Of a stretch of DNA of 64,000 nt, positions 44,693 to 57,049 are shown piece by piece; the stretch's first letter is position 1; each line of letters starts with the position of its first letter. The stretch spans positions 679,880 through 743,879 of the forward strand of contig QVIN01000003.1 in NCBI GenBank assembly GCA_003416985.1, read 5' to 3'. The notes below the pieces were generated by a model that worked only from the letters and a program-made list of their open reading frames with translations, did no database searches and was not told the origin of the DNA. A program made the position numbers and the translations under genes. This DNA comes from Duganella sp. BJB480. Its GTDB lineage: Bacteria; Pseudomonadota; Gammaproteobacteria; Burkholderiales; Burkholderiaceae_D.

Positions 44693-44756
44693 AGGATAGC
44701 GCTGGCCGGCTAAAAATTTTGTAAAGAGTTCAGCGGCCGCCGTATACGCCGCGTAT
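44693..44756 (-). promoter_or_regulatory. Shared KdpE-like tandem promoter P2 (62-aa protein)
   Basis: Half-sites ATACGC and GTATAC (11 bp apart) are followed 21 bp later by CTTTACAAAA and TTTTTAG (11 bp apart), then CGCTATCCT as the -10 region. The last 34 bp match the kdp promoter at 15 of 17 and 8 of 9 positions in its two conserved blocks. A TATACGCCGCGTATA palindrome at 44743-44757 overlaps the first pair. Confidence 0.65.
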
Positions 44757-44764
44757 AAGCGGCG

Positions 44765-45469
44765 TCAGGCCGGCAGCTGCAGCCGGTAGCCGACCGCCGT
44801 CTCGGTCAGCAGGTAGCGCGGCTGGGTGGGGTCGGCCTCCAGCTTGTGGCGCAGGTGGCCCATGTAGATGCGCAGGTAGTGGCCGTTCTCCGACTGCGAC
44901 GGCCCCCACACGGCGCGCAGCAGCTGCGGGTTGCTCATCACGCGACCGGCGTTGCCGACCAGGACCGCCAGCAGCCGGTACTCGGTCGGCGTCAGGTGCA
45001 CATGCTCGCCGCCGCGCGTGACGCGGCGGTTCTGCAGGTCGACCGCGACGTCGCCGAAGCGCACCAGGCCGGCGTGGTCGGCGGCCGGCTGGCGCTGGCG
45101 GCGCAAGGTGGCGCGCACCCGCGCCAGCAGCTCGCCCACGCCGAACGGCTTGGTCAGGTAATCGTCGGCGCCGGCGTCCAGCGCGCGGATCTTGTCGGCC
45201 TCGTTGACGCGCGCCGACAGCACGATCACCGGCACGCCGGACCACTTGCGCAGGTCGGTCATGAAGTCGACGCCGTCGCCGTCCGGCAGCCCGAGGTCGA
45301 GCACCACCAGGTCGGGCTTGCGGGTGCCGGCGTCGATCAGGCCGCGCTGCAAGGTGCCCGCCTCGTGCACCTGCCAGCCCTCCTCCTCCAGCGCGGCGCG
45401 CACGAAGCGGCGGATCTGCGGTTCGTCCTCCACCAGCAAGGCGGTGGGGGCGGTGTCGGGAGTGCTCAT
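44765..45469 (-). CDS. kdpE: KdpE response regulator (OmpR family)
   Basis: A 234-aa activator of the high-affinity K+ transporter operon. The receiver domain has the acidic pocket EDE and phospho-acceptor Asp58 in LVVLDLGLPDGDG. The C-terminal winged helix carries HLTPTEYRLLAVLV and GHYLRIYMGHLRHKLE, the KdpE signature. Its ATG overlaps the kdpD stop (ATGA). It is the best candidate for the factor binding the four related promoters in this window. Confidence 0.96.
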   Translation of the reverse strand: MSTPDTAPTALLVEDEPQIRRFVRAALEEEGWQVHEAGTLQRGLIDAGTRKPDLVVLDLGLPDGDGVDFMTDLRKWSGVPVIVLSARVNEADKIRALDAGADDYLTKPFGVGELLARVRATLRRQRQPAADHAGLVRFGDVAVDLQNRRVTRGGEHVHLTPTEYRLLAVLVGNAGRVMSNPQLLRAVWGPSQSENGHYLRIYMGHLRHKLEADPTQPRYLLTETAVGYRLQLPA

Positions 45470-56642: not shown

Positions 56643-56950
56643 AGCGCGCCCCGCGCCGCCAGCGGCGTCAGGCGGCCGAACTCGGCGCCCGGCAAGGCCC
56701 GCATAACCGCCTCCATCACCTGCGCCGCCAGCGCGCGCGACACGCACAGCCACACCCTGGCGCGGGCGCCGTGGTCGCAGGCCTCGACCCGCATGAACTC
56801 CATGGCGTCGCCGCAGGTGCGCATCACCAGCGCCCGCAGCGCGGTGACCGCGCCGCTGTCGACGGTGAGCTGCATCAGGCAGGCGCGCGGGCGCGGCGGC
56901 CGGACGCGGTGCTGGTCCTGAGCGGCCCGGGTGTGGAAGAAAGCGTGCAT
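56639..56950 (-). CDS. Small protein of unknown function heading the porin operon
   Basis: A 103-aa protein with AGGGG before ATG 56950. Residues 1-25 are basic (RTRAAQDQHRVRPPRPR-like). The remainder (MQLTVDSGAVTALRALVMRT, FMRVEACDHGARARVWLCVS, AAQVMEAVMRALPG) has a beta-alpha-beta-beta-alpha pattern like a small ferredoxin-like or ACT-type fold, which is inference only. It is co-translated with the truncated ParA-like gene (GTGA) and driven by promoter P3. Confidence 0.7.
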   Translation of the reverse strand: MHAFFHTRAAQDQHRVRPPRPRACLMQLTVDSGAVTALRALVMRTCGDAMEFMRVEACDHGARARVWLCVSRALAAQVMEAVMRALPGAEFGRLTPLAARGAL

Positions 56951-56985
56951 GGCGTACCCCTGTGGTGAACGTTGCGATACCAAAC

Positions 56986-57049
56986 AGCTTATCGGCGCCC
57001 CCGTAAAAACGGTCTAAAAAGGCGGGCCGGCCCTGTAAACATCGTGTAT
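56986..57049 (-). promoter_or_regulatory. Shared KdpE-like tandem promoter P3 (porin operon)
   Basis: Half-sites TTTATACAC and TGTTTACA (11 bp apart), then TTTTTAG and TTTTTACGG (11 bp apart, 21 bp after the first pair), then CGATAAGCT as -10 region, about 35 bp before ATG 56950. It aligns to P1, P2 and P4 with no gap. Confidence 0.65.

Follow-up and report, generated by a model that had tools for sequence, protein, structure and literature searches.

Four promoters that lie within 12.4 kb of one another in the genome of Duganella sp. BJB480, heading the operon for the Kdp potassium pump and three satellite operons, are very probably all activated directly by phosphorylated KdpE under K+ limitation, each as a standard promoter of the kdp type. 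The four share one architecture, are its only strong copies in their own genome, and belong to a type that is conserved across the family, tracks kdpA and kdpE among genomes and recurs in front of the same gene families. Since the start signal of the pump stands before four gene groups here and before the same families in relatives, KdpE probably governs a small set of operons and not the pump alone. The features concerned are collected in Table 1; the window is the whole 64,000-nucleotide stretch of DNA that was analyzed.

Table 1. Promoters, genes and reading frames discussed in the text, in window coordinates, with the match or reading behind each.
Feature	Coordinates	Strand	Basis or remark
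kdp-type promoter 1	53018..53081	-	four predicted KdpE half-sites (TTTACG/TTTACA/TTTACA/TTTAGA) and -10 block (TAACCT); kdp operon downstream
kdp-type promoter 2	44693..44756	-	between kdpE and 62-aa gene; half-sites TATACG/TATACG/TTTACA/TTTAGC, -10 block TATCCT
kdp-type promoter 3	56986..57049	-	heads ActL / ParA-like / porin operon; half-sites TATACA/TTTACA/TTTAGA/TTTACG, -10 block TAAGCT
kdp-type promoter 4	53868..53931	+	heads DapA-like aldolase / ParA-like operon; half-sites TTTACG/TTTACT/TTTAGA/TTTACG, -10 block TACGCT
62-aa protein	44475..44663	-	one hydrophobic stretch (by reading); no Pfam or NCBIfam match
kdpE, response regulator	44765..45469	-	NF007820 351.9 bits, cut-off 325; 64% identical to E. 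coli KdpE
kdpD, sensor kinase	45466..48225	-	PF02702 4.4e-95
kdpC	48249..48842	-	PF02669 1e-71
kdpB	48858..50978	-	TIGR01497 1087.4 bits, cut-off 527.9
kdpA	50988..52805	-	PF03814 match at G000:C30:730885-732654 in own genome
two tiny leader ORFs, ~30 aa each	52805..52983	-	read from ORFs
212-aa ORF	53219..53857	+	no family match; between promoters 1 and 4
DapA-like (DHDPS family) aldolase	53960..54862	+	PF00701 3.6e-67; TIGR00674 252.4 bits, cut-off 206.15
ParA/MinD-fold protein without Walker A	54859..55410	+	no family match; model pLDDT 84.7
TorF-family putative outer-membrane porin (Gcw_chp)	55468..56229	-	PF09694 6.5e-54; TIGR02001 183.7 bits, cut-off 47.15
second ParA-like protein	56262..56642	-	NF041546 3.1e-07, below cut-off; start codon inferred
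ActL (name coined here), 103 aa	56639..56950	-	predicted ACT/PII-like beta-alpha-beta-beta-alpha-beta fold

The original prediction was of four 64-bp stretches that align without gaps, and so they do on the strands listed, with 24 of the 64 columns invariant; the gene assignments bear out that the first heads kdp and that kdpE lies in the window (the second of the tiny leader frames before kdpA we take to be KdpF-like). Its account of the half-sites stood in part. The 11-bp spacing within each pair holds, whereas the offsets 0, 11, 32 and 43 mark the starts of TTAC, ATAC or TTAG, one base 3' of the half-site start, and TTTA begins at -1, 10, 31 and 42. What had been called TTTA-like reads TTTA in 13 of the 16 half-sites and TATA in the other 3. 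The -10-like TAnnCT block expected at the end of each stretch is present in all four, at offset 58, and by hand count its end lies 28-35 nt before an ATG in every case. KdpE half-sites are defined, in the accessible part of PMC3264566, as TTTATA and TTTACA with 5 bp between them (TTTATA-N5-TTTACA), and two pairs of such half-sites at 11-bp spacing, with small variants, are found in all four promoters. The same part reports that dinucleotide changes in TTTA abolish KdpE binding.

As far as sequence goes, the architecture of the four is that of the ordinary kdp promoter. Searches used R1, a sequence-only model built from the four sites, R2, a broader model, and an 80-site matrix; R2 and the matrix were built on sites picked by R1 in porin-centred loci, mostly beside kdp, and R1 itself, the E. 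coli promoter and the promoters of other families are free of that selection. In the 9.5-kb kdp locus of E. coli MG1655 the kdp promoter is the best R1 match (11.2 bits, model positions 2-48; the next reaches 5.3), and on the kdp strand of that locus the matrix scores 27.5 at the kdp promoter and -29.6 at the next place. An ungapped alignment of the window and E. coli kdp promoters, TAnnCT included, is identical at 43 of 64 positions, the E. coli proximal pair being TTTGCG/TTTGCA, that is, TTTGC against TTTAC. Over the 80 R1-selected sites the half-site cores and the TA..CT letters carry 1.6-1.8 bits per column, most spacer columns carry less than 1, and the two pairs are equally conserved, the downstream one at 1.8 bits (T31-A34 and T42-A45). 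Twenty kdp upstream regions from other Burkholderiales families were hand-chosen from 93 non-family genomes with kdpA (19 families, mostly one region each). The matrix beats all 50 mononucleotide shuffles in 18 of them, L184 and L187 failing, and the score is negative, with at least one half-site decayed, in 7 of the 18 that pass.

Several scans indicate that the four sites stand apart from their surroundings. With leave-one-out matrices none of 127,870 other window positions reached the left-out site (z 7.9-9.0), and a window scan without filters gave 49-54 bits for the four against 4.0 for the next best. The original prediction had proposed a matrix scan of the genome and of relatives. In the 7,267,612 bases of the own genome R1 found exactly the four sites (E 6.4e-14 to 2.6e-12), and R2 at E<=10 found the same four and nothing else; as the first-look step scored 150 of 626 and 150 of 744 candidates, respectively, weak copies in this genome could be missed. 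Scattering of the motif before unrelated housekeeping genes, which had been named as evidence against a dedicated regulon, was not seen in the own genome, where the four matches are all in the cluster; in relatives, most of the non-local sites examined stand before recurring gene families. A chance origin of the four sites was rejected on the own-genome, window and leave-one-out scans. Generic sigma-70 promoters were also rejected, with no consensus match in 44400-57400 and 1.2 expected.

Of 80 loci around relatives of the porin, 73 contained R1 matches at E<=0.1, 150 in all. The nearest reference gene behind these matches was kdpA in 64 cases, ActL in 39, the porin in 17, the aldolase in 16, a ParA-like gene in 6, a KdpC-like gene in 1 and none in 7. 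In 18 loci the kdp promoter stands back to back with a divergent site, 4-49 bp away, that faces an aldolase gene in 16 of them, a ParA-like gene in L013 and ActL in L038. Wider gaps between divergent promoters occur in L007 (779 bp), L021 (959 bp), L043 (967 bp) and the window (786 bp), where the intervening stretch (53082-53867) contains the 212-aa ORF and parts the kdp and aldolase promoters; L007 is similarly separated. Two loci, L010 and L019, have a site downstream of kdpE with a relative of the 62-aa protein, 51 or 61 aa long, behind it, and a site and a kdpE are 30 bp apart in G139.

Across 145 genomes of the family R2 matched 144 places at E<=0.01, distributed over 70 genomes: 60 kdp promoters, 37 sites within 20 kb of kdpA, 18 farther off along its contig, 23 on a different contig and 6 in kdpA-less genomes. 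At least 91 of the 144 are within 25 kb of a kdpE, as counted from most, not all, KdpE places. KdpA is present in 85 of the 145, and at E<=1e-4 the site is found in 54 of these 85 against 1 of the 60 genomes lacking kdpA (31 with kdpA only, 59 with neither; Fisher p 3.8e-16, a value that, like those below, overstates independence because the genomes are related and the tests ignore phylogeny). At E<=0.01 the table is 64 with both, 21 with kdpA only, 6 with the site only and 54 with neither. KdpE, searched at E<=1e-75, occurs in 98 of the 145; against the site at E<=0.01 the counts are 67 with both, 31 with KdpE only, 3 with the site only and 44 with neither. Among kdpA-less genomes the site (E<=0.01) is present in 5 of 16 with KdpE versus 1 of 44 without it (p 0.004). 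No site was detectable in the remaining 11 of the 16, and three genomes (G052, G065 and G076) have a site but no KdpE match at 1e-75; the kdpA match of G052 spans only 2-388 of 548 near a contig region, so that its kdpE may be lost or unassembled. Of 300 genomes of the order, 101 have kdpA, as do 17 of the 18 that carry a site (p 4.5e-8).

Six kdpA-less genomes carry a site. In five, a KdpE above the curated cut-off lies 0.8-3.7 kb from the site, and on this ground a link to kdpFABC alone was rejected; the sixth, G065, has no KdpE above that cut-off. Weak matches (E 1.1e-4 to 5e-3) account for four of these five sites, and the ungapped matrix scores 25.4 in G025, -9.5 in G058 and -17.6 in G078 and does not recover the site of G041. 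The sites of G025 and G058 lead into kdpD, which is shortened to 553 and 529 aa, and kdpE, followed in G058 by a Kup-family transporter (kup). The open frame behind the site of kdpA-less G031 (L139) is ParA-like by eye and had no Pfam or NCBIfam match.

Sites away from kdp mostly fall before the same gene families. The 23 best (down to E 3.3e-6) of 41 non-local sites in genomes with kdpA were fetched as 20 loci, which held 28 matches; the three weakest were dropped and 25 examined, 4 of them (G144:C46) just 30-33 kb from kdpA. Nineteen of the 25 precede a gene for ActL, a DapA-like aldolase, a ParA-like protein, a membrane protein of ~60 aa, or a KdpE-like or KdpC-like protein. ActL is followed by an aldolase in five loci (L119, L120, L125, L127 and L138) and by a ParA-like gene in L122 and L137 (the frames of L137 appear broken), and stands alone in L126. 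Relatives of the small membrane protein, 56-61 aa long, follow sites in L126, L128-L132, L134 and L135, the six cases in L128-L132 and L134 coming from one genus (tag g6) and from alignment rather than a BLAST match. A KdpE-like regulator (296.6 bits, below cut-off) follows in L121, a KdpC-like protein in L126 and a ParA-like protein in L133. The other 6 sites precede other genes, unassigned frames (in L126, L133 and L135) or a contig end (L136). One of them, L123:4788-4847, stands before a 651-aa APC-type permease (below the Pfam cut-off), then a band-7 protein; our guess is that the permease may be a KimA-type K+ importer. Another distal kdp-type site, L124:2041-2101, precedes a match to the XopK effector family, also below cut-off. 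KdpC-like paralogues behind kdp-type sites were noted at L126:3348-3818 and L010:5973-6605, the one in L010 being N-terminally extended. Farther behind the site, L119 has a ChaA-like antiporter gene, and L120, L125 and L127 have similar 365-aa frames. Kup-like genes in L043, L049, L065 and L066 (by family scan in L066) have weak, partial sites ahead of them.

The window KdpE retains R193, R200 and T215 in alignment with E. coli KdpE; according to the accessible part of PMC3264566 these residues contact DNA, and mutating them stops kdpFABC induction. The accessible part of PMC7657598 gives kdpFABC as the sole E. coli target until ChIP-exo and RNA-seq added adeP, uxaA and uxaC. The original prediction held that the satellites were not known Kdp targets, and we found nothing to alter this: open-access literature searches turned up, among the matches listed, no KdpE regulon with a TorF/Gcw porin, and the part of PMC7657598 just cited names no porin, ActL, ParA-like or aldolase target in E. 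coli. The window resembles E. coli kdpFABC in half-site type, ungapped spacing to the -10 block and conserved KdpE recognition residues, but differs from it in the near-single target reported there (PMC7657598) and in the divergent proximal pair. A second parallel is the EIIANtr-KdpDE-KdpFABC pathway of Sinorhizobium fredii, where, in the accessible part of PMC9239096, KdpE binds the kdpFABC promoter directly but not the kup or trkA promoters, whereas here Kup-like genes of four loci have weak sites in front of them and G058 has kdpD, kdpE and kup in a row. KdpE, which had been put forward as the binding factor by inference, is supported as the candidate by the architecture shared with E. coli, the retained residues, the co-occurrence with kdpA and kdpE, and the recurring gene families.

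Tandem direct-repeat sites are common to members of the OmpR family, among them PhoB, an activator responding to phosphate whose tandem repeats replace the -35 element at several operons. On that ground a different OmpR-family regulator might bind the four promoters, with kdp as one of its targets, and both the 11 genomes with KdpE but neither kdpA nor a detectable site and the three with sites but no KdpE match lean the same way. We nevertheless consider this very improbable: this architecture is shared by the kdp promoter of E. coli, where KdpE is the proven regulator, the site lies close to kdpE in five kdpA-less genomes, and G052 may owe its status to a missing or unassembled kdpE. PhoB in particular shares tandem repeats with these promoters but uses a TGTCA(T/C) box rather than TTTA (PMC3264566, accessible part), with phosphate rather than potassium as its signal; a PhoB-type box was rejected, as the half-sites here are TTTA or TATA and not TGTCA-type repeats.

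The crowding of the four promoters and the paired back-to-back promoters of 18 relatives could also mean that local promoter duplication made them alike and that kdp alone is functionally regulated. This is hardly credible, the least so of the alternatives, since conservation over the 80 R1-picked sites is concentrated in the half-site cores and TA..CT and not in the spacers, and since copies persist away from kdp, in several genera, ahead of these families, by which local duplication alone was rejected. It is also quite unlikely, if somewhat less so than the other two, that KdpE binds the satellites yet represses them or has no large effect on them. There is precedent in E. coli, where 31 ChIP-exo peaks lay upstream of 37 genes of which only six were directly regulated (PMC7657598, accessible part), but the spacing to the -10 block is the same as in the KdpE-activated kdp promoter, and the lack of sigma-70-consensus matches fits, weakly, dependence on an activator.

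Direct activation by KdpE would proceed as follows. At low K+, KdpD would phosphorylate KdpE, which would bind as two tandem dimers, one at the upstream pair (-1, 10) and one at the promoter-proximal pair (31, 42). The E. coli KdpE footprint is cited as -72 to -50 in the accessible part of PMC3264566; with a start site presumably ~7 nt past the -10 block, that footprint would correspond to the upstream pair here, and the proximal pair would occupy the -35 position. KdpE would then recruit RNA polymerase to the TAnnCT block and thereby induce in concert kdpFABC(DE), the 62-aa gene and the ActL/ParA-like/porin and aldolase/ParA-like operons. Occupancy by KdpE, its two dimers, activation in place of repression, and a K+ signal for the three satellites are what we infer. 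If true, the second dimer site at -35 is conserved among families of the Burkholderiales and, though decayed, still discernible in E. coli, so that two dimers would be the general unit of activation, and the conserved proximal pair yields a concrete prediction about contact between KdpE and RNA polymerase.

A conserved multi-operon regulon would differ from the nearly one-target KdpE of E. coli, would link outer-membrane permeability, a PII-like/ParA-like pair and a lysine-pathway-type enzyme to K+ starvation, and would give each uncharacterised satellite gene a testable condition. A joint reading, which we put forward tentatively as possible rather than probable, is that Oxalobacteraceae have a dedicated KdpDE potassium-famine module, comprising a K+-admitting outer-membrane porin, the PII/ACT-like ActL, ParA-fold proteins that have lost the ATPase motif, a DapA-type aldolase and a small pump-tuning membrane protein derived from KdpC, combined with the second, proximal KdpE dimer site at -35. 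The individual roles (admitting K+ across the outer membrane, sensing nucleotides or metabolites and, for the 62-aa protein, tuning the pump) are speculation.

The satellite proteins themselves offer some clues. Relatives of the 62-aa protein, 51-61 aa long, stand directly behind the same promoter type elsewhere. Profile comparison gives it a weak match to KdpC-like proteins (probability 79, E 1.6e-5, 24% identity over 54 columns), aided by the one N-terminally extended KdpC-like protein of L010, and this is a lead that it may be related to KdpC. Structure models were made for window proteins and porin-relative loci, and fold searches with them led to broad classes only. That of ActL has a pLDDT near 90 over the core, and its best fold matches, all weak, are to an MgtC C-terminal domain, ribosomal protein S6 permutants and PII-like proteins such as SbtB. 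The two ParA-like proteins, one per operon, are related to each other. The Walker A motif of ParA/MinD proteins is KGGxGK(T/S); the alignment of the first (54859-55410) shows MIVALTGMDGNATVSDL there, so that it matches in fold alone (best PDB matches FlhG and ParF, E about 1e-4), and relatives in L068 and L081 keep GGxGKS. Proteins of Rugamonas sp. A1-17 and Duganella sp. BJB476 match the porin at 96% identity, which presumably places the window in that part of the Oxalobacteraceae.

Outside the family, sites in two genomes of another family (L190:9342-9405 and L194:4671-4734) stand before a ferredoxin-like frame and a pair of electron-transfer-flavoprotein frames, as assigned by family scan in L194. 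In a further non-family member of the Burkholderiales, a kdp-type site ~8 kb from kdpA (L191:9280-9343) precedes a PTS EIIA domain protein, to which PtsN is closest, below that cut-off, and an amino-acid-kinase-family frame; in S. fredii, EIIANtr works through KdpD (PMC9239096, accessible part).
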